Virus record (IMG/VR): IMGVR_UViG_3300033153_004559
Span: 1 to 28,008 of that record
Origin: a virus
Length of the DNA stretch: 28,008 nt
Direction: 5' to 3' (one strand)
This document shows positions 3,702 through 20,045 of this stretch, piece after piece; positions within the stretch are counted from its first letter, which is position 1, and each line of letters begins with the position of its first letter. The position numbers were made by a program, and so were the translations under genes. Under the pieces are notes generated by a model that saw only the letters and a list, made by a program, of their open reading frames with translations, did not search any database and was not told the origin of the DNA.

Positions 3702-3787
3702 ATACAATTTAACAGGGTAAAAAGGCATATTAGCCAAATTGCCATAATTAAACGCCATGATAAGTGGCAGAAGCTGGAGGTTTTACA

Positions 3788-4639
3788 ATGAGTTTGAAAA
3801 AGTTGAAGGATTATAAACTGACGTTCAAAGAATTGAAAGCAGCATGTACAGAACTGAATGATTCTGAACTTGCTGACCCTATTGTGGTCAAAGTTGGGAC
3901 AAAAGGTGAAGTGATGCTTGTAGCTTTCCTTGATGCTGTTGATTCTATTAGTAAGAAAAAAGTAAAAAATATTCCTGCAAATGTCAGTGCCTTTTATGAT
4001 GGGCTTTCTCAAGAAGTATTTGATGATGCTGATGACGACGATGCCACTGCTGATGATGCTGATGCCACTGCTGATGATGCTGATGCCACTGCTGATGATG
4101 ACGACGATGCCACTGCTGATGATGACGACGATGCCACTGCTGATGATGACGACGATGCCACTGCTGATGATGCTGATGCCACTGCTGATGATGCTGATGC
4201 CCCTGATTCTGATTGCCCAACATTCCTCACTGGTTGGGATGACGGTGAAGATGACTGCCAGGAATGTAAAAAAGAATATAAAGATGAGTACACTGCTTGT
4301 AAAAAAGCCACCAAGAAAGCTGCAAAAGCTGATGCCAAAAAGAAACCTGCTGGTAATAAAGCTCCTGGTAAACGTACCCGTTACGGTCATGTTCTTGGTA
4401 GTATGAATGAAGATGTTGACAACATGCTGTGGAAAGGTGCAAAGCGAGAAGCCATTGTTGCTGTACTTGTTAAAACTCACAAACGTGAAGAGCGTCTTGC
4501 CGTAAACAAAGTTTCCGGCCATATTGCTCACCTCAAAAACAACCGTGGAATTACTGTCACTGAAAATAAGAAAGGTATTCTTAAAGCTGACAAAGAATTT
4601 TCCAAAGGTTATGATAAGGACAACACTGTAACCAAGTAA
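3788..4639 (+). CDS. Acidic repeat protein with Cys motif and basic C-terminus
   Basis: 283 residues from ATG 3788, chosen because CTGGAGG at 3774-3780 is correctly spaced; an upstream TTG at 3764 is rejected. Three parts: an N-terminal ~75-residue folded-looking region, a tandem Asp/Ala/Thr repeat (about residues 79-140, units like DDADATA and DDDDDATA), and a C-terminal region. The last begins with a Cys motif (CP followed by DDCQEC and a further C) and continues as a Lys-rich domain. The Cys motif resembles the one ending the SSB at 17502. The acidic stretch should be disordered and could mimic DNA. It is a monocistronic unit between its own promoter and a terminator, next to the clamp operon. 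Function unknown. Confidence 0.8.
   Translation: MSLKKLKDYKLTFKELKAACTELNDSELADPIVVKVGTKGEVMLVAFLDAVDSISKKKVKNIPANVSAFYDGLSQEVFDDADDDDATADDADATADDADATADDDDDATADDDDDATADDDDDATADDADATADDADAPDSDCPTFLTGWDDGEDDCQECKKEYKDEYTACKKATKKAAKADAKKKPAGNKAPGKRTRYGHVLGSMNEDVDNMLWKGAKREAIVAVLVKTHKREERLAVNKVSGHIAHLKNNRGITVTENKKGILKADKEFSKGYDKDNTVTK
4020..4203 (+). repeat. Coding tandem repeat, 21- and 24-bp units
   Basis: About eight in-frame units alternate between a 21-bp form (GATGATGCTGATGCCACTGC plus T) and a 24-bp form with an extra GACGAC. The order is roughly mixed, A, A, B, B, B, A, A. All unit lengths are multiples of three, so copy-number change would leave the frame intact and only alter the acidic linker length. 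Confidence 0.9.
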
Positions 4640-5654: not shown

Positions 5655-6538
5655 AGGACGTTTCATTAAATAAAGATCACCGCACTGCTTTTAAAAAATT
5701 TATTAAAGACGGTGAAATACCCCACCTGTTGTTAGAAGGACCGCAAGGTTCAGGCAAAACAACAATGGCATACATTTTGATGGCAGAAATCCCATGTGTA
5801 TGTCTCACCCTTAATGCTTCTGGCCAAGACCGTGGCATTGACACTATTCGTGGCAAAGTAAAACAATTTGCAGCATCCGCAGTAAAGAAAGGTCATATCA
5901 AAATCATATTGTTTGATGAGGCAGATGCACTTACAGCAGACGCCCAAACAGCTTTGCGTAATACCATGGAAACTTACAGCAAAAATTGCAGGTTCATTAT
6001 GACCTGTAATTATGTTGACAAAATCATTGGGCCTCTTCAATCACGTTGTACACGATTTACTTTTGACCGTTTCCCTAAACGTAAGCTGGTCAGTGTGTGT
6101 GAAGATATACTTGAAGCTGAAGATATTGAAGACACCAGCCGTGAAGAAATCGCTGAACTGATCAACCGTTTCTACCCTGATATGAGGTCAGTTGTGAACA
6201 ACCTGCAATCTGCCTGTGTTAGTGGTATTTTTAACGCCAAAGCCATTGGTTCCCTCAATGCAGATCCAAAAACAATCTGTGAACACATACTTGCTGGTAA
6301 CATACTGTCATTGAGACAAGAAGTTGCTGGTACAACAGACTTTGCGTTTATGTACAAATATTTGTTTGATGAGTTCATGCTTGATAATGGGGATGCTGAT
6401 CAAAAAGCAGACATTGCCTTAGCTATTGCTGATTCTTGTAGGTATGATCCATCTGTACCTGACAGGGAGATAGAGTTCACTGCTTGCTGTATGAATATCA
6501 TGGCAAGTATGGACATAACACCTAATTTCTCAAAATAG
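5600..6538 (+). CDS. Clamp loader AAA+ ATPase (T4 gp44-like)
   Basis: 312 residues, T4 gp44 is 319. Start is GTG 5600 with GGAGG at 5588-5592. Motifs in order: WFEKYRPIKLKDV at the N-terminus, Walker A GPQGSGKTT 47-55, Walker B FDEADAL 105-111, sensor 1 TCNY 135-138, SRC motif 148-150 with its arginine finger. These are diagnostic of replication factor C-type loaders, which use ATP to open the sliding clamp and place it on primed DNA. The partner small subunit is probably encoded at 6771. Confidence 0.95.
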   Translation: MSKLQSYIWFEKYRPIKLKDVSLNKDHRTAFKKFIKDGEIPHLLLEGPQGSGKTTMAYILMAEIPCVCLTLNASGQDRGIDTIRGKVKQFAASAVKKGHIKIILFDEADALTADAQTALRNTMETYSKNCRFIMTCNYVDKIIGPLQSRCTRFTFDRFPKRKLVSVCEDILEAEDIEDTSREEIAELINRFYPDMRSVVNNLQSACVSGIFNAKAIGSLNADPKTICEHILAGNILSLRQEVAGTTDFAFMYKYLFDEFMLDNGDADQKADIALAIADSCRYDPSVPDREIEFTACCMNIMASMDITPNFSK

Positions 6539-6546
6539 GGGATGGC

Positions 6547-6666
6547 ATGAGTACAACAGCAAAAGTAACACCTTCCAAAAACTTAATTGATTCTTTAGTT
6601 AAGGATGTAAGTAACACATGGGAAGGTAGTGCACGTAGATTTATTCGTGCTGTAGCTCAAGGCTGA
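6547..6666 (+). CDS. Small protein, 39 residues
   Basis: Reads MSTTAKVTPSKNLIDSLVKD then a short Trp/Arg-containing tail, stop at 6664. A purine-rich AGGGGAT lies just before the ATG, and the gene starts eight bases after the clamp-loader stop. It is too short for motif analysis and not recognised, but spacing, codon pattern and lack of overlap suggest a real reading frame. Confidence 0.45.
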   Translation: MSTTAKVTPSKNLIDSLVKDVSNTWEGSARRFIRAVAQG

Positions 6667-6684
6667 AATTTAACCTGTAAGCAC

Positions 6685-6728
6685 TTTTTAAGGGGTAAGG
6701 TACCTTTGCATACCAAGCCCCTTAAAAA
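6685..6728 (+). terminator. Strong hairpin, possible terminator or RNA element
   Basis: TTTTTAAGGGG (6685-6695) pairs perfectly with CCCCTTAAAAA (6718-6728), and GGTA/TACC extends inside. There is no U-run after the stem on the + strand, so it may act as an mRNA-stabilising or bidirectional element rather than a classical terminator. It separates the loader gene from the 6771 gene. Confidence 0.5.
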
Positions 6729-6770
6729 TCAAATGGTGCTATGTTTATTAAATCGTAGGAGGTAGTTGTA

Positions 6771-6944
6771 GTGGCATCAAAATTGTTTGATCAAATAAAT
6801 GATGTATGGGCAGGTAAGAATATAACCACAAAGACAAAACCAGATTCTGTATACATGACAAACAGGTTCTTATCACTTGACCCTGATGGATTCATGCAGT
6901 GGTTAATAAACGGCCACCTAGAAACAAGTATCCAAAGAAATTGA
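6771..6944 (+). CDS. Clamp loader small subunit (gp62-like), N-terminal part
   Basis: GTG 6771 follows GTAGGAGG. The 57-residue product reads MASKLFDQINDVWAGKN and then YMTNRFLSLDPDGFMQW before a tail that stops at 6942-6944. The NRFLSL segment resembles the N-terminus of phage clamp-loader small subunits (the gp62 functional class, in which Y-x-x-NR motifs are common). The position straight after the gp44-like gene matches the T4 order. The protein is too short for that family. The next open frame (-1) from 6887 carries the missing C-terminal half, implying a frameshift, natural or artefactual, near codon 44 (TGG 6900-6902). Confidence 0.6.
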   Translation: MASKLFDQINDVWAGKNITTKTKPDSVYMTNRFLSLDPDGFMQWLINGHLETSIQRN

Positions 6945-7081
6945 CTGAGGGTGTGAAGCTCACAGAAAAAAAGAAGGTAGCACTAAAACGTGTCTGTGTA
7001 AAATTTAATGTGACTGATTTTCATGGTCTCCAGATTATGGGGTTGCTTGAACAAAATGGTATTAAACTGGAGGCATCGTAA
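6887..7081 (+). CDS. Clamp loader small subunit, C-terminal part in -1 frame
   Basis: The frame is open from 6887 after a TGA at 6884; a GTG at 6899 could start a 60-residue protein but lacks a binding site. It encodes a basic segment (KRPPRNKYPKKL) and a helical end (KFNVTDFHGLQIMGLLEQNG). These fit the C-terminal part of gp62-type subunits when joined to the 6771 frame, giving about 103 residues. The stop overlaps the next start (TAATG), which indicates that this frame is really translated to its end. Confidence 0.55.
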   Translation, partial: WIHAVVNKRPPRNKYPKKLTEGVKLTEKKKVALKRVCVKFNVTDFHGLQIMGLLEQNGIKLEAS

Positions 7082-7698
7082 TGAGTTTTTTTGACAATAG
7101 ATCTGATAAGGCTAAGAATTTCTCTAAGGTCACCAAGGGTAAAAGCAAAAATGAGATACGTAAAGCTGAAGAAGCACTACTAAAGCCAGAACCCCTTGAA
7201 ATATACAAAGGTGAAAAGACAAAACATAGAAGTGAACTGGCATCACGTAAAGCTATTATTGTGTTTAAAGATAAGAAACAGCAAAAGTTAATAAATGAAC
7301 TGATGTCTGTCAGGGAGTCAGTTAATGGGGAAGTATACATCACTGACATTTCCATGCTTGAAAATCTTGCCAAGGCTGTGAGAAACGGTGAAATGCGTGT
7401 TATTGATAACAAACTTACCTTTGTTGATGAGCCAGATGACCCTGACACAGTACACTCAATGGAAGAATTCCAAGCCAAGTATTTCCCTAAAGATGTGGGT
7501 AAAAAGTGTTTCACTTGTGGGCGTAAAAAGAAAAAGAAACATAACAAGTACACCACCGCTATCATTGAGAAAGCCATTGCTGATAATACTGAAAAATGTA
7601 TGAATGAGATGAAGGGTTCTGTTGAACCTGAAGTGGTTGGTACTCAGGAAAAAGTAGGAAAAGTTGTGCGGCGTAGAAGTAGACGTAAACTAAAATAA
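7081..7698 (+). CDS. Unknown basic protein with CxxC
   Basis: 205 residues, coupled to the preceding frame by TAATG. Lys/Arg-rich N-terminus (first ~60 residues), a compact-looking middle (FKDKKQQKLINELMSVRES to LENLAKAVRNGEM), one CFTCGR pair followed by a Lys cluster, and an Arg/Lys tail RRRSRRK. The charge suggests nucleic acid binding. I do not recognise the family. Its position in the clamp operon suggests a replication or late-transcription role, which is only inferred. Confidence 0.75.
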   Translation: MSFFDNRSDKAKNFSKVTKGKSKNEIRKAEEALLKPEPLEIYKGEKTKHRSELASRKAIIVFKDKKQQKLINELMSVRESVNGEVYITDISMLENLAKAVRNGEMRVIDNKLTFVDEPDDPDTVHSMEEFQAKYFPKDVGKKCFTCGRKKKKKHNKYTTAIIEKAIADNTEKCMNEMKGSVEPEVVGTQEKVGKVVRRRSRRKLK

Positions 7699-7735
7699 TA
7701 CGGCACTTCACCCAAAAAATTTTATGAGATAAATA

Positions 7736-10075
7736 ATGACTAAACTACCAGACAAATTACCACCATACTACAGCCCACGTATCTCAAGTGAGTTACCTGA
7801 CTGTTCATCCCCACTCACCTTTGATACGTACTCCCGTTGTTCTATGCGGTGCCAGTATTGTGTGCCAAAAGGTTCTGGAATAACGATGGTCGATGGGAGT
7901 ATTAAACAAGTTGAAGATGTCCAAGTAGGTGATGTGGTGCTTGGATATAATGAAGATGATAACTCCCCCGAAGCTACTGTTGTAGAAAAAACAATGTGTA
8001 GGGAAGACACACGTACAATAACTTTCAGGACAGAATCAACCAAATTTAAAGTTACACCTGAACACCCTATATTTACAAAAGATGGTGGGTGGGTTGATGC
8101 AAAAGATGTGGCGAAGGGAGATTTAATATTAACACATAATATTTTTGTGGAAGACCCTGTCACTTCTAAAATAATAGAATTAATATTCAGTAGAAAACCT
8201 ATTAAAGCTGCACATAAACACAGGCTGTACGCTGTTTGGAACGTAATGATACAAAGGTGTCATTACCCAACCAATGATAAGTTTATGTACTACGGATTGC
8301 GTGGCATTCAAGTGTGTAGCGAATGGAGACATAACCCATTTGCTTTTTACACATGGGCAGAGGCACATGGATATGTAGAAGGCTTGGAATTAGATCGTGA
8401 GGATAATGATGGTGACTACACTCCTGATAATTGTAGATTTGTTACACACCAAATCAATTCCAGTAACAGAAATAAAAGAAAAACTAATGTGAGTGGGTAC
8501 ATAGGTGTATCCAATTTGCCTAATGGAAGGTTCAGGGCACGGTCGATTGGCAGGGACTCATTACATAATTCGGCAGAACGTGCTGCTATAATGAGAGATC
8601 GCACTGAAAAAGAAACTGATTGTACACCAAATTTTGCTAGAATACCCCATGCAATACTTAGGTGGGAATGTATTGAATATACACGTACTCACTATGTAGA
8701 TGTGGAGGTGTATAATTTTGAATGTTGGCCTAATAACAATTACTTTGCTCAAATAAGGGACACTACTACTTCCGCATTTACCAATGGGGTATTGATCCAT
8801 AACTGTTTCAGTCATGCACAAAAAGACGTTAATCCTGGAACAAAAGATGCACCCCTTCAAGGTGTTGATGCTGAGAAATTATTTCAGATGATTGATGGTA
8901 CTGCTAAAACCAAAGAAGCCAAACTGTTTTATAAGTATTTCTTCAAGGATAAATTCTTATTCCATTGGGGTGGGTTGGCTGATTCATTCTGTCATTATGA
9001 ACGCAAGTACGACATGTCTTACCCCATACTCAAAGGATTACTTGAACGCAAGTACCCATTGATGTTCAGTTCCAAGGGTCCTGCCATCACTGACGACAAG
9101 TACGTTACCCTGTTTGAGAAGTATAAAAAGCAAAACACTACTGCATTCCAGTTTAGTATTGTGACTGCTGATGATGATCTGGCTAAGAAAGTTGAGCCAG
9201 GAGTTCCTAGCCCCACTGAACGCTTTGAGAACATGAAAGTTCTAAGTGACATGGGTTATTGGACTATACTGAGGCTTAGACCCTTCATCATTGGAGTTAC
9301 TGATGAATCATTACCTGAACTATTACAAAAAGCATATGAGTCTGGGGCGAAAGCTATCAGCACTGAGTTCTTTGCTATGGATCAGCGTTGTGTTGGAAGT
9401 ATGCGTAAAGCTACTGAGAACATGGGTAGGTTAATGGGTATTGATAATATCTTTTCATACTTCAATAAATTGTCACCAAAAGAACGTGGTGGTTACAACA
9501 GGTTGAACCGTTTAGTAAAAGAACCATTTGTCAAATACATGTACAAGTTCTGCCTTGAGCATGACATGGTATTCACGTGTTCCGACCCTGATTTCAAGGA
9601 ATTATGTCAATCAGAAAACTGCTGTGGTTTGCCACCACATGGTGAACACCCCACACCTTCTATGAATAATTGGTCTACACATCAAATGACTTCTTATGTA
9701 ATGCACGCCAGAATAAAATACCATCAAACTGGTGAACGCATGCTATTCAAATTTAATGAGGTGTATGGAAAACCAGATTGGATATTCGATGACATTGCTC
9801 TGAGTCATATGGATATTGGGTGTACCAAGTATCCTTATGCTATGCGTAAGCAGTTAACTCTGCGTCATTTGTTGCAAGAAAAGTGGAATAACCTCAAGTC
9901 GTACGCTAATCCTAGGTCGTACTTTCATGGAAAGGTAATGCCTTGTGGTGTCAGTGAAGATGATAATTTGATTTACCGGTATAATCCAAGTGATTATGAA
10001 TCCAGGTGGGTTAGTGAAGGTATACCACTACATTTAGAATGGGAGGGTGGCACCTATGTTGACACAAAAAAATAG
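7736..10075 (+). CDS. SplB-like radical SAM protein interrupted by an intein
   Basis: 779 codons. After removal of residues 42-356 (intein) the host protein is 464 residues. The extein joint recreates the radical SAM motif CSMRCQYCFSH, CX3CX2C, for the 4Fe-4S cluster that cleaves S-adenosylmethionine; its third Cys exists only after splicing. Downstream features fit the COG1533/SPL-like group: FHWGGLADSF, PLMFSSKGPAI, FQFSIVTADDDLAKKVEPG and ILRLRPFIIG. Spore photoproduct lyase repairs thymine lesions, but phage homologues are uncharacterised; repair or base modification are both possible. There is no good Shine-Dalgarno before ATG 7736. Family assignment is good, substrate unknown. Confidence 0.85.
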   Translation: MTKLPDKLPPYYSPRISSELPDCSSPLTFDTYSRCSMRCQYCVPKGSGITMVDGSIKQVEDVQVGDVVLGYNEDDNSPEATVVEKTMCREDTRTITFRTESTKFKVTPEHPIFTKDGGWVDAKDVAKGDLILTHNIFVEDPVTSKIIELIFSRKPIKAAHKHRLYAVWNVMIQRCHYPTNDKFMYYGLRGIQVCSEWRHNPFAFYTWAEAHGYVEGLELDREDNDGDYTPDNCRFVTHQINSSNRNKRKTNVSGYIGVSNLPNGRFRARSIGRDSLHNSAERAAIMRDRTEKETDCTPNFARIPHAILRWECIEYTRTHYVDVEVYNFECWPNNNYFAQIRDTTTSAFTNGVLIHNCFSHAQKDVNPGTKDAPLQGVDAEKLFQMIDGTAKTKEAKLFYKYFFKDKFLFHWGGLADSFCHYERKYDMSYPILKGLLERKYPLMFSSKGPAITDDKYVTLFEKYKKQNTTAFQFSIVTADDDLAKKVEPGVPSPTERFENMKVLSDMGYWTILRLRPFIIGVTDESLPELLQKAYESGAKAISTEFFAMDQRCVGSMRKATENMGRLMGIDNIFSYFNKLSPKERGGYNRLNRLVKEPFVKYMYKFCLEHDMVFTCSDPDFKELCQSENCCGLPPHGEHPTPSMNNWSTHQMTSYVMHARIKYHQTGERMLFKFNEVYGKPDWIFDDIALSHMDIGCTKYPYAMRKQLTLRHLLQEKWNNLKSYANPRSYFHGKVMPCGVSEDDNLIYRYNPSDYESRWVSEGIPLHLEWEGGTYVDTKK
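7859..8803 (+). mobile_element. Intein with HNH/AP2-type homing endonuclease domain
   Basis: 315 residues (42-356 of the host ORF). It begins at Cys1 with GITMVDGSIKQVEDVQVGD, a standard block A. It has block B TPEHPIF and ends GVLIHN before Cys+1, so all splice residues (Cys1, TxxH, HN, Cys+1) are present. Between the splicing blocks, about residues 160-290, lies an HNH-like endonuclease (WNVMIQRCHYP, YYGLRGIQVCSEW, LDREDNDGDYTPDNCRF). It is followed by an AP2-like DNA-binding stretch (SGYIGVSNLPNGRFRARSIG). It should be active in splicing and homing. Insertion in the cluster-binding motif is typical intein behaviour, since imprecise loss would kill the enzyme. Confidence 0.92.
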
Positions 10076-12941: not shown

Positions 12942-14888
12942 ATGTCATCATTCTTTAAAAAACATCAAGTAAATAAACCAAACTGCCCTAAATGTGGGTT
13001 GGATAAGCAATGCAAAACACCCCGTGTGCAAGTTTCTGGTTCAGGCGAGAAAGGTATCCTAATCATAAATGATTACCTGTCAAATATTGAAGACAGGGCA
13101 GGTAAAGTATTTTCTGATAATGCTGGCAAGAAACTCACTAAACAACTGCGAATGTCAGGTATAGTACTTAAAAAAGATTGTTGGGTTATTAATGCTGTTG
13201 GATGCAGACCACCAATTAATTCAAAAGGTAACATTATACCACCATCATCTAAAGTTGTTGGGTTTTGTAGACCTACAATACGTGGGATTATTAAGAAGCT
13301 CAACCCTAAAAAAATAATCATCCTTGGTGACACTGCATTAGAATCATTTTACAGTGAACGTAATAAGAACTGTACCAGCATGTATAAAATGGCAGGACTA
13401 AAATTGTGGGATAGTACCTACAATGCATGGGTATTCCCTGTGTGGAATCCAGCATTACTTGAAGTTAAGAGTAGAAATTCTATGCTACTCAGTGAATGGA
13501 AGCGATGTTTGGTGCGTGCTATCAGGGCTGATGATACACCACTCAAAAAACGCTGGAACCCTATACATAAACTTCTTGATTTCAAACAAGCTATACAAGC
13601 CCTGACTAATTGTCTTAAAGAAGACAGAATTATAGCCATTGACTTTGAAACAACTGGTTTGGATATGTATAAAAAGGGGCACAAGACTGCCTCATTCGCA
13701 TGGGCTAATGCAAATGCTTCTTGGGCTGTTCCAGTGCAACACCCTTACTGGAATAAAAAACAACAGGAAAAAATATTCACACTGGTTCAAAAAATACTCA
13801 AGAAACGCAAGATAAAAAAGGTTGTGCAGGGTATTAATTTTGAATACCCATGGACTAAGCAGCAATTCAAAGTAAATCCTGGCAGTTTCATATGGGATAC
13901 ACAACTTGCTACCCACATATTAGATAACCGCACTGGTATTACTGGTTTGAAATTTCAAGCCTATCAACGGTGGGGTATTGAAGACTATGATAAACTCAGC
14001 CAAAAGTATATAAAATCTAATGGCAATGAGTTTAATGACATGCTCAAAATGCCTGTAGACGCACTGCTTGAATACAATGCAAAAGATACATTGTATACCT
14101 ATGCATTGTACGATGAACAGTTGGGTGAATTTGAGGGACGTGAGCTTGAAGCATATAAATTCATGCACGCTGGAGCTATTGTAATGTGTGAGATGAGTTT
14201 TAATGGTATCAGCATTAAGGAATCATTTTACCTCAAACAAAAAGTACTACTTGAACAAGAACGTGATGATTTGATCAGCCTAATTAATGATTCAAGGGAA
14301 GCACGTTTGTACACTAAGAAGTATGGTGGTACATTCGATTACAACAGCCCTAAAGACCTTCAAAAAATGCTGTTTAAAGTGCTGATGCTTAAATCAATCA
14401 AGGAAACCAAAACTGGTCACAGTGTTGATGAAGAAGTACTAACCAAAATTGGTATTGACCTTACCAAAAACATTATTGCTGTGCGTAAGCTAAATAAAAT
14501 GATTGGCACGTATGTTGATGGGTTCTTGAAGCATACTCATGATGGTATGATGCACCCCTCATTCAGTTTATCACGTGCAAGATCATTTAGGAGCTGTATA
14601 GCACAGGGTGAACTTGTTAACACTACTATGGGTATGAAGCCAATTGAAACAGTGTCACGGGGTGATTTGGTGTATTGCTTTGACAACGATATGAAACCGA
14701 CAATACAACCTGTAGTATGGTCTGGTTGTACAGGTCATAAAAATACAATTAAACTTAGAATACAAAAAAACAATGGTGCTATTGTTTATATACAATGCAC
14801 CCCTGAACATAAAATAAGATTATGTGATGGCACTTATAAAAGGGCTGATGCATTACTGCCCACAGATAATATAGCGGAGGAACTTTAA
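12942..14888 (+). CDS. Family A DNA polymerase, N-terminal part plus split-intein N
   Basis: 648 residues. Residues 1-185 resemble family 4 uracil-DNA glycosylase. Cluster-type cysteines C15, C18, C88 and C109 and GKVFSDNAGKKL, INAVGCRPP and IIILGDTALESF are kept. Catalytic motifs look lost (NDYLS for GEAPG, WNPALL for HPSLL). Residues 229-400 are a DEDDy 3'-5' proofreading exonuclease (DFETTGL with D234 and E236; YNAKD). From ~400 the polymerase thumb and start of the palm follow, up to RARSFRS. Residue C552 then starts intein-N, and translation stops at 14886. The rest of the polymerase is the next gene. AGGAG precedes ATG 12942. Confidence 0.88.
   Translation: MSSFFKKHQVNKPNCPKCGLDKQCKTPRVQVSGSGEKGILIINDYLSNIEDRAGKVFSDNAGKKLTKQLRMSGIVLKKDCWVINAVGCRPPINSKGNIIPPSSKVVGFCRPTIRGIIKKLNPKKIIILGDTALESFYSERNKNCTSMYKMAGLKLWDSTYNAWVFPVWNPALLEVKSRNSMLLSEWKRCLVRAIRADDTPLKKRWNPIHKLLDFKQAIQALTNCLKEDRIIAIDFETTGLDMYKKGHKTASFAWANANASWAVPVQHPYWNKKQQEKIFTLVQKILKKRKIKKVVQGINFEYPWTKQQFKVNPGSFIWDTQLATHILDNRTGITGLKFQAYQRWGIEDYDKLSQKYIKSNGNEFNDMLKMPVDALLEYNAKDTLYTYALYDEQLGEFEGRELEAYKFMHAGAIVMCEMSFNGISIKESFYLKQKVLLEQERDDLISLINDSREARLYTKKYGGTFDYNSPKDLQKMLFKVLMLKSIKETKTGHSVDEEVLTKIGIDLTKNIIAVRKLNKMIGTYVDGFLKHTHDGMMHPSFSLSRARSFRSCIAQGELVNTTMGMKPIETVSRGDLVYCFDNDMKPTIQPVVWSGCTGHKNTIKLRIQKNNGAIVYIQCTPEHKIRLCDGTYKRADALLPTDNIAEEL
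14595..14885 (+). mobile_element. Split intein, N-terminal half (IntN)
   Basis: 97 residues from Cys1: CIAQGELVNTTMGMKPIETV then SRGDLVYCFDND, a textbook block A. Block B follows, with IQCTPEHKIRLCDG (TxxH). It ends with stop TAA inside TAATG, where IntC begins. The length and end point match known split IntN halves of around 100 residues. Confidence 0.92.
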
Positions 14889-14992
14889 TGGCAACATTAC
14901 TTTCTGTAGAAGATGCAGGGTTTGTAGATGTATACGACCTTGAAATAGAAGATGTACACAACTTTTTGGTGGGTGGGATTTGTGTACATAAT
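14888..14992 (+). mobile_element. Split intein, C-terminal half (IntC)
   Basis: 35 residues beginning MATLLSVEDAGFVDVYDLEI, then EDVHNFLVGGICVHN. Block F (VYDLEIEDVHNFLVGG) and block G (ICVHN, then Ser+1) are complete. The 35-residue length equals that of classical split IntC halves. Confidence 0.92.
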
Positions 14993-16837
14993 AGCTCACA
15001 ATCACCCAACTTTTAATATACTGGAAGTTGTAAAAGTCGTTGAATTGCTGGGACTTCCTAAAGGCGTACAACTACAGCATAACTGGTAACAGTAAGTGCG
15101 AATGTTAAAAATGTATTGCATGATAATCTTACTTGGTATATAATGTGTATTAGGTTAGTATACAAAGGAGATTTAAAATGGATAATCAGCAGCCAAGTGA
15201 CTTAGGAATAAAAACTTTACTCATAAATGCCAAAGTGGGAGATGGGTACTTTTGGAAACATCCAGAATGTATCAATTATAAAATGGTGTTTACTTCTACA
15301 GATGAAGAAATACTTAAAAAGAAGATGAATTTATACCCATCATTATTTCCTTCAGGGGTTAAGCTATATAGAAAAGAAGGGGCAGTTACTAATTACTGCA
15401 CTAATAGTAAAGCCTTATATAGAATAGCATCATTAGTCCACCCATTATGTACTGAATATGCAAATAGAAGAAAAGAAAGTGTTATTAAAGAAATGACCCT
15501 TTTTGATTTTGCTTTATGGTATCTTGATGATGGTAGTTATATTGCACGCCCGCCTAAAGGACATAGGTTTATGATACATATAGGTGATTGTGCAACAGGT
15601 AGTAAACGGCATGTTATTTTTATGAATAAAGTACAAGAATTATTTGGTCACATTACAACTAGAAGTAATTCTATAGGTCATGTGATAAAAAATAATTCTA
15701 AGGCAACAGAAAACAATATGACTTGGAAAATGCCCATACCATATGGTCTAAAGATAATTGAAACTATTACTTCATTTCATGTAATGCCTAAAAAATTTCC
15801 TAGAGTTAAAGGTTCAGAGACTATCCCTAACGGGAGTACTACCACAGGGATAAGTGGTAGGAAGCGGCGACAACTACATTAGTAGTTATGATATAGTCCA
15901 TCCTTATTGGAAACGATAAGAGTGCTATCAACCCGGATAGTACGTAATGTAAGAGCAAAACGTACCAAAGCGTGACCCCAAGGCAAAACGCATTACACGG
16001 TCAGGTATGGTTCCACGTGAGGGTAGGGTAATTGGTGAAATGGACTTCTCTGGTGCTGAGATTTCAACCTCATGCTACTACCATAAAGATCCAACCTTCA
16101 TTAAGTATCAAACAGAAGGTGGTGGTGATATGCATAATGACGCTTGTGCAATCATACTCGGGCTACCTGAAGGTACAAAGGTACCAAAACCTTTGAGACA
16201 ATGCACCAAGGGCGTGTGGACATTCTCACAGTTCTATGGTAGTTACTATGTATCATGTGCCAGACAAGGCTGGGAGGAATACCCACTGTGTGTTGAGAAA
16301 GATGGGTCACCTTGCCAAATAAATGGTATGGATATTGGTAAGTGGATGAAGAAACAATTCAAAACTTATAAAAACTTTGAAAATCATCTTAAGAAATTCC
16401 AAAGCACCTTCTGGGATGATTGGTTCAAGGTGTATACTAAGTGGAAAGAAAAAGTATGTATAGATTATGAACGCAGTGGTTATGTTGAGACATTTCTTGG
16501 GTTCAGATTCAAAGGGTACATGGATAACAAACAATGTACCAACTACCCAATCCAGGGCACTTCATTTCATTTGCTGGTATACACAGCCGTTGAGTTTTGG
16601 AAAGAGTGCCGTAGGCGTGGATTGAAAACCCTTATCATTGGACAGGTACATGACAGTTTGATTCTTGACATCCCTGTTGAAGAAATTGATGAAGTCAAAA
16701 CCATACTAAAAGAAATTGTTGGTGACCTGCACAACATATTCAAATGGATGGATTTCCCAATGGGACTTGACCTTGAGATAAGTAAATCATATGAGCAGGG
16801 TGGAAGCTTTGCCAGCATGGAGAAACTTGAGTTATGA
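14888..16837 (+). CDS. Split-intein C plus C-terminal part of family A polymerase (join 14888-15013, 15956-16837)
   Basis: ATG 14888 overlaps the previous stop and has GGAGG at 14876-14880, so it is an independently translated gene. Codons 1-35 are IntC, ending GGICVHN before Ser+1. Exon SSQSPNF (14993-15013) follows, interrupted by a group I intron, and resumes QNVPKRDPKAKRITRSG at 15956. Joined, this is the conserved family A SSSxPNxQNxP region. Then motif A GEMDFSGAEIS, motif B RQCTKGVWTFSQFYG and motif C QVHDSLILD. After trans-splicing the polymerase would have about 851 residues (551+7+293). Unspliced mRNA stops at TAA 15014. Confidence 0.9.
15116..15173 (+). promoter_or_regulatory. Internal promoter and RBS-sequestering hairpin for the intron endonuclease
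   Basis: TTGCAT 15116-15121, 17-base spacer, TATAAT 15139-15144. In longer transcripts AATCT (15125-15129) and CTTGGTATA (15132-15140) can pair with TATACAAAG (15159-15167) and AGATT (15169-15173), covering the AAAGGAG ribosome binding site. RNA starting at this promoter lacks the left arm, leaving the site free. Confidence 0.65.
15178..15882 (+). CDS. LAGLIDADG-type homing endonuclease in the intron
   Basis: 234 residues, AAAGGAG at 15164-15170 before the ATG. Two degenerate LAGLIDADG helices are visible: TLLINAKVGDGYF (13-25) and FALWYLDDGSY (111-121), each ending in an acidic residue of the active site. It should cut intron-less polymerase genes at the exon junction and drive intron spread. 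The last ~25 codons run through the ribozyme core (P7 and beyond), so the C-terminal sequence GSTTTGISGRKRRQ is dictated by RNA structure rather than protein function. Confidence 0.88.
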   Translation: MDNQQPSDLGIKTLLINAKVGDGYFWKHPECINYKMVFTSTDEEILKKKMNLYPSLFPSGVKLYRKEGAVTNYCTNSKALYRIASLVHPLCTEYANRRKESVIKEMTLFDFALWYLDDGSYIARPPKGHRFMIHIGDCATGSKRHVIFMNKVQELFGHITTRSNSIGHVIKNNSKATENNMTWKMPIPYGLKIIETITSFHVMPKKFPRVKGSETIPNGSTTTGISGRKRRQLH

Positions 16838-16951: not shown

Positions 16952-17509
16952 ATGAATGATTTTGAGGACAAAATAAAGTTCCGGGATTGGGACGATTACA
17001 ATTTAGCAGAAGATGCATACTTTGATAAGTACGCCCTTGACCTTGAGGCTGAAGATCAACCGCATCTAATGTGTAAGTGGCTTGAACTATTAACACAGTC
17101 ACAAGCTGAACTATCTAAAGCAAAGGAGGTCATGGCTAACACTGAAGCCAAATTGTTTCTCAAGGTTAAAACGGAAGGAGTTCCTTCCCTAGGCTCAAAA
17201 CCAACTGAGGCAACTGTAAAAGCGTATGTCCATACTCAACCTGAGTACCGGAAAGCACAAAGGCGTAAAAGAAAAGCCGATAATAGTGTGCACTACCTTC
17301 AAAATGCCAGATCAGTATTGGAGCACAGAAAAACCATGATCAAAGTTGAAGCTGATTTATGGATCTGTGGTTACTTCGCTAAACCGCATGTCAGTGGTGA
17401 AGTAAAGAAGGAACTTGACGAAGAACGTCGCAAGCAACATGCAACCAAATTAGAAGAATCCCTAACTAAGAGGCATAAACGCCAACATAAGGAGAACGAC
17501 AATGGCTAA
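16952..17509 (+). CDS. Coiled-coil protein, possible UvsY-like recombination mediator
   Basis: 185 residues from ATG 16952; an in-frame TTG at 16916 lies inside the promoter and is rejected. Acidic N-terminus, a long helical part (CKWLELLTQSQAELSKAKEV to about residue 135), and a Lys/Arg/His-rich tail. T4 UvsY also has a KW-containing helical body and works with gp32 and UvsX. This gene directly precedes the ssb gene (8-base overlap) and recA lies downstream. The UvsY link is therefore mainly positional with weak sequence support; a structural coiled-coil protein is the alternative. Confidence 0.6.
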   Translation: MNDFEDKIKFRDWDDYNLAEDAYFDKYALDLEAEDQPHLMCKWLELLTQSQAELSKAKEVMANTEAKLFLKVKTEGVPSLGSKPTEATVKAYVHTQPEYRKAQRRKRKADNSVHYLQNARSVLEHRKTMIKVEADLWICGYFAKPHVSGEVKKELDEERRKQHATKLEESLTKRHKRQHKENDNG

Positions 17510-18497
17510 AAGACAAAGTATGCGAGACAAAATGAGAAACAAACTCAAAGACCGTACCAAAGAATCACACAAAAACCGTGACAGTGGCGGTGGTATGAAG
17601 AATTACTTTGATGATGAAAAGATGGGTGAGCTAACCACTTGGTGGGCTGGCAAAGGTGACCACATCATTGATGTTATACCGTATCTTGCTGGTACCAATG
17701 ACCCACGCAATAAAGAAGGCGAACCTGCTTACGTACTTGATATTGAAGTACACCGCTTTGTTGGCTCAATGGATGAAATGGTTGTTTGTCCTGAACAATT
17801 CGGTGACCCATGCCCCATCTGTGAAAAGTCCCGTCAGTTGAACCGTGAAGGTGCTGATTTTAAAACTGAGATCAAACCACTCAAGCCAGGACGTCGTGCT
17901 GTATACAATGTAATTGTACGTGACGGTGGTGACATGGAGAAGAAGGGTAATCAGGTATTTGAGATTGCTCATTGGTTCATGGAGAAACACCTTGCTAAAA
18001 TCGCTAAAGACCCCCGTGGTGGTGGCTTTACTGTATTCAGTGACCCTGATGAGGGTAAGTCTATCTCATTTGAACGCTCCGGCACTGGTGCTACCAGCAC
18101 CAATTATGAAGGGCACCGCTTTGTTGATCGCCCTGAAGTAATCACTGACGAGGAGCTTGACGATGCTGAGTGCCTTGATGATCTCATTGAAATGAAAACC
18201 TATGATGAGATTTATGAAATTTTCTATGGCAAAAGTGTTGATGGTGACGAAGCTGAAGATGATCCAAAGGTTGATGAACCTGAGGAAGTTGATGAGCCTG
18301 AAGAGCAAGAAGAAGCTGATGAAGAGCCTGAAGAAAAACCTGCCAAACGTCGCAACAAAAAAAGTAAGCGTGTCCGTAAGAATAAAAAGCCTGCTTGCCC
18401 CCATGGTCATGTCATTGGTGAAGATATCGATGAAGAAGATGAATGTGATGAGTGCGATATGTATGACAAATGCAGCGACATTGCTGATGATATGTAA
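17502..18497 (+). CDS. Single-stranded DNA-binding protein (gp32-like)
   Basis: 331 residues, AAGGAG before ATG. Basic N-terminus (KRQSMRDKMRNKLKDR) as in the cooperative-binding region of gp32. An OB-type core carries a zinc site of gp32 style: H84, C96, C104 and C107 (CPEQFGDPCPICEKS). Then EGHRFVDRPEVITDEEL and a very acidic Glu/Pro repeat (about 245-290), a Lys/Arg patch, and a C-terminal Cys motif (CPHGH, DECDECDMYDKC). It would coat single strands in replication and recombination, the acidic tail recruiting partners. The last 21 bases are repeated at the end of the next gene. Confidence 0.88.
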   Translation: MAKRQSMRDKMRNKLKDRTKESHKNRDSGGGMKNYFDDEKMGELTTWWAGKGDHIIDVIPYLAGTNDPRNKEGEPAYVLDIEVHRFVGSMDEMVVCPEQFGDPCPICEKSRQLNREGADFKTEIKPLKPGRRAVYNVIVRDGGDMEKKGNQVFEIAHWFMEKHLAKIAKDPRGGGFTVFSDPDEGKSISFERSGTGATSTNYEGHRFVDRPEVITDEELDDAECLDDLIEMKTYDEIYEIFYGKSVDGDEAEDDPKVDEPEEVDEPEEQEEADEEPEEKPAKRRNKKSKRVRKNKKPACPHGHVIGEDIDEEDECDECDMYDKCSDIADDM

Positions 18498-18509
18498 CTA
18501 CTTGTTTTT

Positions 18510-18536
18510 ATACATTTTTAAAAATAAAAAATGTAT
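18510..18536 (+). terminator. Weak A/T-rich hairpin after ssb
   Basis: ATACATTTTT pairs with AAAAATGTAT on each side of a short A/T loop, just after the ssb stop and just before the endonuclease promoter. It might slow polymerase but has no G/C-rich stem. Confidence 0.3.
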
Positions 18537-18584
18537 TTGACAAACACCTCACTTTATTATATCATATACTAATAAAGTGAGGTG
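18537..18584 (+). promoter_or_regulatory. Endonuclease promoter embedded in a 15-bp RBS-sequestering hairpin
   Basis: TTGACA 18537-18542, 17-base spacer, TATCAT 18560-18565. Bases 18545-18559 (CACCTCACTTTATTA) are the perfect reverse complement of 18570-18584, which includes the GTGAGGTG ribosome binding site. Read-through RNA folds and hides the site. RNA initiated here (start near 18572) contains only the right arm and can be translated. Confidence 0.75.
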
Positions 18585-18589
18585 TACCT

Positions 18590-19396
18590 ATGAAGAAAAG
18601 AAAATTATGTGGTTGTGGTTGTGGTGAATTAGCTAATCCTGGGTGTAAGTACATACGTAATCATCATCGTAGGGGAAAAACATTCAAATTAACTGAAGAA
18701 CAAAAAGCTAAACAAAAAAAAGCTATATCTGGTAAAAATCATTATAATTGGGATGCTACCAAAGATAGGGAATCTCATTTATGTGCATGTGGTTGTAGAG
18801 AGTGGACTAAACCTGGAAATAAATACATACATAATCATCATATGTGTGGTGAAAATAATCCAATGTATGGTAAGTTGGGTAAGTTATGCCCAACATATGG
18901 AAGAAAACATACTGAAGAAACTAAAGAAAAAATTAGTTTATCTCGTGTAGGTGAAAAAAATCACAGGTATGATCCAACACGTGATAGAGACACAAAAAAA
19001 TGTGCATGTGGTTGTGGTGAGTTAACAACACCAGGAAAGAAATATATACAAGGGCATTGGGCTAAAACAATACATAATTTAGAAGTAAGGTGTGCAATAC
19101 GCCAATATTGTGATAGTTGGTATGATCCTGATTATAAGGAATGGATAAAACATACACGTGATTTTAAAAAATGCCAAAACCCTAATTGCATACCAAATAA
19201 TACAGAAAAACTTGTACACCATATAAATGAAAATAAACAGGATTGTAGGCCTTACAATTTATTAACATTATGTAGAAGTTGTCATGGTATATATCATATG
19301 GCACACACAAAAGTTAAAAGGAGATTTAGGGAAATGTTTAAAGAGATAGCAAAATACAATACAGATAAGTGCTCCGACATTGCTGATGATATGTAA
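18590..19396 (+). CDS. HNH homing endonuclease with zinc repeats, ending in an SSB tail copy
   Basis: 268 residues. Three repeats of the form CxCGC-E-TxPGxKYIxxH (starting near residues 8, 64 and 138) look like zinc-binding units. Between the second and third is a NUMOD3-like segment (GENNPMYGK, YGRKHTEETKEKIS). The C-terminal HNH is CQNPNC, LVHHINENKQ, YNLLTLCRSCHG. The final residues DKCSDIADDM are identical to the end of the SSB upstream. The composition is more A/T-rich than neighbouring genes, in line with acquisition. It probably targets the ssb 3' end in related phages. Confidence 0.85.
   Translation: MKKRKLCGCGCGELANPGCKYIRNHHRRGKTFKLTEEQKAKQKKAISGKNHYNWDATKDRESHLCACGCREWTKPGNKYIHNHHMCGENNPMYGKLGKLCPTYGRKHTEETKEKISLSRVGEKNHRYDPTRDRDTKKCACGCGELTTPGKKYIQGHWAKTIHNLEVRCAIRQYCDSWYDPDYKEWIKHTRDFKKCQNPNCIPNNTEKLVHHINENKQDCRPYNLLTLCRSCHGIYHMAHTKVKRRFREMFKEIAKYNTDKCSDIADDM
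19364..19396 (+). repeat. Duplicate of the ssb 3' end (original 18465-18497)
   Basis: 33 bases encode the same 10 residues plus stop. The last 21 bases are identical. The first 12 differ at four positions, all silent (for example TCC against AGC for Ser). This is a footprint of endonuclease insertion into ssb. Confidence 0.85.
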
Positions 19397-19498
19397 TAAA
19401 CACCTCCCTCATCCGAAGGTGGTCAGGTAATTCCTGACACTGTAAGGGCTTAGGTCTGCAGACTGAAAAGGAGTAACTCACTCCCTGCCCTTACTTTT
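19397..19498 (+). terminator. Three-stem RNA structure ending in a U-run
   Basis: CACCT/AGGTG and GTCAGG/CCTGAC hairpins are followed by a closing stem GTAAGGGC (19442-19449) with GCCCTTAC (19487-19494). The last encloses a GTCTGCAGAC palindrome and GGAGT/ACTCC, and is followed by TTTT. It probably ended the ssb transcript before the endonucleases arrived. It has the same two-hairpins-in-a-stem layout as 473-585. Confidence 0.65.
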
Positions 19499-19526
19499 AT
19501 TGGTGAATATCATAATGGAGATTATG

Positions 19527-20045
19527 ATGATAACACAAAAAGAATTAAAAAAGGTACTGCAATATAATCAAGAAACTGGTTATTTTATTTGGAAGCATAG
19601 TAAAAGTGGCAGGCGTGGCGATGTAGCTGGTGGATTAGCAAGTGGGTACATACACATTTGTATTAATGGGAAAATATATAAAGCACATAGATTAGCTGTA
19701 CTGTACGTTAAAGGGTATTTCCCTGAACACGGCGTTGATCACAAAGATAGAATAAAACACCATAATTGGTGGGACAACCTACGGGAAGCTACGCAACAAT
19801 GTAATTCAAGGAATCGTGCTAACCCAAGCAATAATACTTCTACGGTTAAAGGTGTTGGTTGGCATAAACATTCTGGGAAATGGTACGCACAAATAGTGAT
19901 AGGTGGGAAACAAACAACTATTGCAAGGAACACAAACTTTGATGAAGCTGTATGCCATAGGTTGGCAGCAGAACAATGTGTTGATTGGGCAGGTTGCGAC
20001 AGCAACAGCCCTGCTTATCAACATGTAAAGGGACAAATACAATGA
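19527..20045 (+). CDS. HNH-AP2 homing endonuclease
   Basis: 172 residues from ATG 19527, spaced six bases from GGAG 19517-19520 (ATG 19524 possible). N-terminal NUMOD-like segment QETGYFIWKHSKSGRRGDVAG, HNH core YKAHRLAVLYVKGYFPEHG, VDHKDRIKHHNWWDNLR, QCNSRNR. AP2-like C-terminal domain with STVKGVGWHKHSGKWYAQI. This is a common free-standing selfish endonuclease type in phages. Its TGA overlaps the recA ATG, so the element has become coupled to recA translation. Confidence 0.9.
   Translation: MITQKELKKVLQYNQETGYFIWKHSKSGRRGDVAGGLASGYIHICINGKIYKAHRLAVLYVKGYFPEHGVDHKDRIKHHNWWDNLREATQQCNSRNRANPSNNTSTVKGVGWHKHSGKWYAQIVIGGKQTTIARNTNFDEAVCHRLAAEQCVDWAGCDSNSPAYQHVKGQIQ

Follow-up and report, generated by a model that had tools for sequence, protein, structure and literature searches.

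A probable mobile endonuclease cassette at the duplicated 3' end of a phage ssb gene

In fungal mitochondria, mobile ORFs at atp6 of Allomyces and at atp6, atp9, cox2 and nad3 of Glomus follow the order inserted gene end, mobile ORF, native gene end (PMC3630166). The native ends are those nearest to insert-free relatives, the changes in atp6 are largely synonymous, and gene-end duplications are likewise described for Rhizopus atp9 and Mortierella cox2 (PMC3630166). In phages, an arrangement of a hairpin over the ribosome-binding site together with a promoter has been reviewed for the homing endonuclease genes (HEGs) I-TevI, I-TevII, I-TevIII, segB and mobE (PMC2988022), and a 2026 preprint describes free-standing HEGs as generally confined to intergenic targets, so that gene disruption is avoided (PMC13405050). 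We found no phage example of a gene-end duplication by a HEG in the open-access papers searched.

The locus considered here lies in a window of 28,008 nucleotides (the whole of the analysed DNA, positions 1 to 28,008 of IMG/VR record IMGVR_UViG_3300033153_004559), and all features of the ssb locus given below are on its plus strand. The target gene (17502-18497) encodes a T4 gp32-like single-stranded DNA-binding protein (SSB) of 331 aa with relatives L001-L032; its PF08804 score of 26.2 bits is slightly below the curated cut-off, and the identification is backed by the UvsY-like and RecA neighbours. Downstream follows an ORF of 268 aa (18590-19396), which belongs to the NUMOD3/HNH class of homing endonucleases: it matches NUMOD3 (3.8e-15) and, below the cut-off of 24.8, HNH_3 (20.1 bits), and the HNH residues HH..N..CxxC are present in the conserved columns. 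Both products end in DKCSDIADDM. Copy 1, the end of ssb (18465-18497, GACAAATGCAGCGACATTGCTGATGATATGTAA), and copy 2, the final 10 codons of the HEG ORF with its stop (19364-19396, GATAAGTGCTCCGACATTGCTGATGATATGTAA), are 33 nt long and differ only at tail positions 3, 6, 10 and 11, whereas the final 21 nt are the same. The mismatches fall into three codons (GAC/GAT, AAA/AAG, AGC/TCC), each of them silent. The first-pass annotation had reported identical tails with the last 21 bases in common and four silent differences, exactly as found, and had compared the locus with Allomyces atp6; this comparison is apt, for PMC3630166 describes the Allomyces case and four more from Glomus, and at ssb too an endonuclease ORF stands between two copies of the 3' end of its host gene.

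A chance origin of the match is excluded. Of 106,360 stop-ended peptides from other loci, the best agrees exactly with the end of DKCSDIADDM over two residues only, and of the 77,255 pairs that same-strand ORF ends form at distances of 0.3-3.5 kb in 378 sequences (of which L120 is the window itself again), ssb and the HEG are the sole pair with at least five terminal residues in common.

The order of events can be read from the relatives. The closest one, L001, has an SSB that is 80% identical and is without the insert; its single ssb tail (TATGACAAGTGCTCTGACATTGCTGATGACATGTAA) is followed by GAAACACCCTCCTCATCCGATGGTGGTCAGGTAATTCCTGAC. In the window, the L001-like 3' flank (TAAACACCTCCCTCATCCGAAGGTGGTCAGGTAATTCCTGAC) stands after copy 2 and not after copy 1, and the ssb 3' flank of the equally HEG-free L002 also corresponds to the sequence after copy 2. 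The L001 codons AAG TGC TCT agree with AAG TGC TCC of copy 2 against AAA TGC AGC of copy 1, in which AAA and AGC are the derived codons relative to L001. Because flank and codons both go with copy 2, this copy is the resident end of ssb, and what was added is copy 1 plus the 866 bp that separate it from copy 2 (18498-19363; intergenic control region and HEG body, absent from L001 and L002). Since the tail has only 33 nt, this polarity rests on few informative sites plus the flank, which weighs most; within that limit the downstream copy is, as in Allomyces atp6, the one nearest to insert-free relatives and the one with the native flank. L001 is the only close HEG-free relative with the same tail peptide as the window, and a search of IMG/VR with the tail-peptide pattern matched L001 alone, so that a donor of the copy 1 spelling was not found there. 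The native flank itself (about 40 nt, 19397-19437) shows strong conservation with L001 and L002 and contains two inverted repeats (CACC..GGTG and GTCAGG..CCTGAC), possibly a regulatory RNA.

The insertion junction lies within a conserved C-terminal Cys4 motif of the SSB, CPHG...C..C....C (18396-18473; Cys 299, 315, 318 and 324), which is present in 10 of 13 aligned SSBs, and the fourth cysteine (residue 324) falls in the duplicated tail. Copy 1 now completes the SSB, including the last cysteine of the motif, and it preserves the protein sequence because the replacement end restores that cysteine. Among random single changes in the ssb tail about 16% are expected to be silent, whereas all of the observed changes between the copies are.

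The reading that we favour, at a probability of roughly four in five, is that a mobile cassette, consisting of a replacement ssb 3' end, a control region and a NUMOD3/HNH HEG, entered ssb 30 nt before its stop codon. The HEG reads in frame into the old ssb tail and uses the stop codon of that tail. The endonuclease would cut HEG-free ssb at or near a GAYAAGTGC junction, repair from a cassette-bearing phage would copy the cassette into the cut gene, and the respelled bases of copy 1 would protect the restored ssb from being cut again. In outline the first-pass annotation had proposed the same, namely that an endonuclease invaded ssb at its end, that the replacement stands upstream and that the HEG became fused to the old end, and this agrees with the flank and codons of L001, with the limit of the HEG family and with the two further loci discussed below. 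It had also proposed a comparison of the ssb ends of related phages: these are single and unduplicated in L001, L002 and L003, and a duplicated tail without an endonuclease was seen in none of the three.

The control region, which separates the HEG start from the ssb stop, suggests how the endonuclease may be expressed. Past the ssb stop lies an A/T hairpin predicted by RNA folding (ATACATTTTT..AAAAATGTAT, 18510-18536), a possible 3' end structure of the mRNA. It is followed by a sigma70-like promoter TTGACA-N17-TATCAT (18537-18565), an 11/12 match with a shuffle P of 0.007 for the 92-nt region, in a window that holds three such 11/12 sites. The -10 element falls within the loop of a second hairpin (18544-18585), which is perfect over 16 bp and buries the Shine-Dalgarno sequence GAGGTG of the HEG (18579-18584); the predicted fold of 18498-18610 reaches -30.9 kcal/mol (z = -6.45). 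In mRNA reading through from ssb this hairpin would hide the ribosome-binding site of the HEG. Since the -10 is within the hairpin loop, a transcript from near 18572 would be without the 5' arm, and transcripts starting about 7 nt past the -10, within the 3' arm, would leave the HEG translatable. A buried ribosome-binding site with an embedded promoter is the arrangement of T4-type hairpin-regulated HEG expression, here read from the sequence only. A resemblance of the promoter region to the native ssb flank (AAACACCTCxCT), suggestive of an autorepressor operator, had a shuffle P of 0.07 and is not claimed.

The ssb case is known from one contig, and the same anatomy was found at two other genes in two other contigs. 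In L003, an HNH_3 ORF (7074-7742) follows recA (6026-7081), and its product carries a repeat of the RecA end in the final 70 residues. The two recA-end copies are identical at 190 of 210 nt and share long allele-specific stretches; every relative is closer to copy 2 than to copy 1, and copy 2 overlaps the beginning of the following gene, as the recA end does in L001 and in the window. The HNH family differs from that of the window HEG: it belongs to phrog_1872/59 and has matches in about 1,500 isolate-phage records. The window HEG has no relatives among 50,697 such records. Fourteen codons differ between the L003 copies, six silently and eight with a change of amino acid. A second patch of changes in copy 1 (6974-6994; DYEEALE vs NLEEELR) lies about 120 nt from the junction, where the relatives have the version of copy 2; it may reflect relaxed constraint after loss of the start region of the next gene, or a second recognition region. 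The remainder of the contig showed no other duplication. In L331, a terminase large subunit (PF17289) ends in ...TKRAGTWGKKH and the NUMOD3/HNH ORF behind it in ...TKRAGTWGKRH; the start codon of the HEG lies within copy 1, and the start of the next ORF at the same relative place in copy 2. This terminase begins with what appears to be the C-terminal end of an intein (2484-2630, ..ILVHN/CDDPHN), beside a GIY-YIG-like ORF.

Gene-end duplications were thus present in three of 90 non-redundant HEG-like ORFs compared with the tails of their upstream genes (window ssb, L003 recA, L331 terL), in a survey biased to loci fetched as relatives of SSB, RecA and the HEG; L003 and L331 have the sample prefix 3300014913 in common. 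The three cases score 55-151, against a null maximum of 23 when HEG-HEG paralogue pairs are set aside. Two sets of candidates were rejected as gene-end duplications: L364-L367 are paralogous genes around a HEG, and L358/L324 are HEG-HEG pairs. Beside 18 HNH genes of isolate phages no gene-end duplication was judged real, the matches being low-scoring or like HNH paralogues. The recurrence of one anatomy at ssb, recA and terL suggests a way for HEGs to occupy essential genes without splicing.

What the silent changes signify is a separate question from the insertion itself. The first-pass annotation had held that silent recoding would protect the resident gene from cleavage. The logic of this stands: the restored gene again holds the target sequence, so that immunity has to rest on bases that differ within the recognition site, since a restoring insertion that did not differ from the target somewhere in that site would make the phage cut itself. 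The clustering of the changes at the junction is weak. In ssb all three differing codons are within the first four (P = 0.048), and in L003 recA three of the first five codons differ (P = 0.051), but in L331 the differences are mostly at the far end, and junction clustering was dropped as a general proof of recoding after L331; the L003 copies also differ in amino acids. Recoding as protection from cleavage is therefore a logical but unproven interpretation.

The chances are about even that the cassette was inserted as described above and that the silent differences reflect ordinary divergence with no need of selection for protection from cleavage, copy 1 having come from the ssb of a related phage in which purifying selection removed changes of amino acid. 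Three differing codons out of ten are unremarkable, because, where the window and its relatives have the same amino acid in ssb, recA, pol and the uvsY-like gene, some 20-60% of the codons are spelled differently, and the six silent and eight amino-acid-changing differences in L003 are in line with divergence, as are those of L331 that lie chiefly far from the junction. Against it, a restored end identical to the target would be cleaved by the phage's own enzyme, so that some difference in the recognition site is to be expected, and the differences in ssb and recA do lie near the junction (P of about 0.05 each, Fisher 0.017), to which the later-found L331 is contrary. The data would be matched equally well by protection and by a donor allele that had diverged under purifying selection.

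Another question is whether the duplication was part of a cassette from the beginning. A HEG may first have lain in a donor just behind ssb, recA or terL; in a recipient, homologous repair would then have closed one side of the break and illegitimate joining the other, so that the duplicated end is a scar of repair and not an adaptive cassette. T4-like phages commonly have HEGs beside the target genes (PMC2988022), and the L003 copies, with their 190 of 210 identical nucleotides, share allele-specific stretches. Because these identical stretches are long, the new end could equally well stem from a foreign donor, from local duplication or from gene conversion, and in that contig they would point to a local origin or to gene conversion at a later time. 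Against a scar, the fusion is in frame, the upstream gene end complete and the start or flank of the downstream gene kept in all three cases, and a scar does not by itself account for persistence; we consider this origin possible but somewhat doubtful.

The peptide that the HEG shares with the SSB, identical and in frame in both proteins, could conceivably be functional, for example as a tag that recruits the endonuclease to SSB-bound replication proteins. Homologues of the HEG with the same HNH core (L033, L034) stop about where the SSB tail starts in the window, and the tail is therefore not a feature of the family. An AlphaFold model of the HEG (mean pLDDT 47, too poor for a fold search) is confident for the HNH core alone and places the tail in its low-confidence end, and the recA and terminase tails of the other two cases are unlikely recruitment tags, so that we consider such a function very improbable. 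From the absence of the tail in the family and its low confidence in the model, the HEG ORF seems to end on a stop codon borrowed from the gene that it invaded, and the fused SSB tail is probably vestigial. Weakest of all is an assembly artefact that fused two strain variants: the window is a single virus contig, but the copies differ at four sites with unique sequence flanking each, L001 matches the downstream flank, and the anatomy is found again in two other contigs.

The HEG is carried neither by a group I intron nor by an intein. A search with RF00028 gave no match in 18380-19560 up to E = 5, while the polymerase intron of the same window was detected in this way; an intein was rejected given that ssb stops before the HEG, the HEG is in another frame and there is no Hint match. 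Elsewhere in the window, the DNA polymerase I gene (12942-16837) is apparently interrupted twice: an ORF with an N-intein ends at 14888, where its stop codon and the ATG of a C-intein ORF (TIGR01443, 8.8e-7) overlap, an apparent split intein, and the C-intein ORF continues into a group I intron (15014-15955; RF00028, E = 1e-4) that contains a free ORF (15178-15882); the exon join CTTT + CAAAACG is the exon sequence of L001. A radical-SAM ORF (7736-10075) has an intein (Intein_splicing, 4e-7), the inserted part of which is HNH endonuclease-like. Between ssb and recA a second HEG (19442-20045; HNH_3 and AP2, phrog_99) takes the place of three small ORFs of L001, and upstream of it lies an int-alpA-like RNA (35.3 bits; gathering threshold 35.8). 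An acidic protein encoded at 3764-4639 consists in part of repeated DDDDATADD units.

It is an evenly balanced proposition that gene-end swapping is a third route of phage HEGs into conserved coding sequence, besides introns and inteins and besides intergenic sites: a cassette would bring a respelled gene end, the HEG would borrow the old tail with its stop, the old end would keep the overlapping start of the next gene, two HNH families would have converged on this solution at ssb, recA and terminase, and immunity would come from respelling and not from a split site. If true, this would lift the intergenic-only limit on free-standing HEGs and explain how upstream gene, HEG and overlapping downstream gene are intact together. 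It names three precise candidate cleavage sites, the ends of ssb, recA and terL, ties a phage phenomenon to a documented mitochondrial one, and calls for caution in phage phylogenies, as sequences of gene ends may be swapped.

Like the free-standing seg and mob HEGs of T4, the HEG of the window is phage-borne, stands beside replication genes and has a predicted promoter-bearing hairpin over its ribosome-binding site, as in I-TevI, segB and mobE; the T4 genes, however, are described at distances of hundreds or thousands of bp from the sites that they cleave (PMC2988022), whereas the window HEG lies inside a duplicated coding end. With HEGs of group I introns and inteins it shares the occupation of conserved coding sequence and the preservation of the protein, but there is no ribozyme and no Hint domain, and continuity is provided by the duplicated end instead of by splicing. 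The closest likeness in order is to the fungal mobile ORFs, with an in-phase inserted end upstream, an endonuclease ORF and the native end downstream. Those are mitochondrial, encode LAGLIDADG or GIY-YIG enzymes and have tails of about 50-280 nt, whereas the cases in tailed phages involve two families of HNH enzymes, have tails of 33-210 nt, and the HEG uses the stop codon of the native tail. The phage element works like the fungal ones and is not of their lineage.
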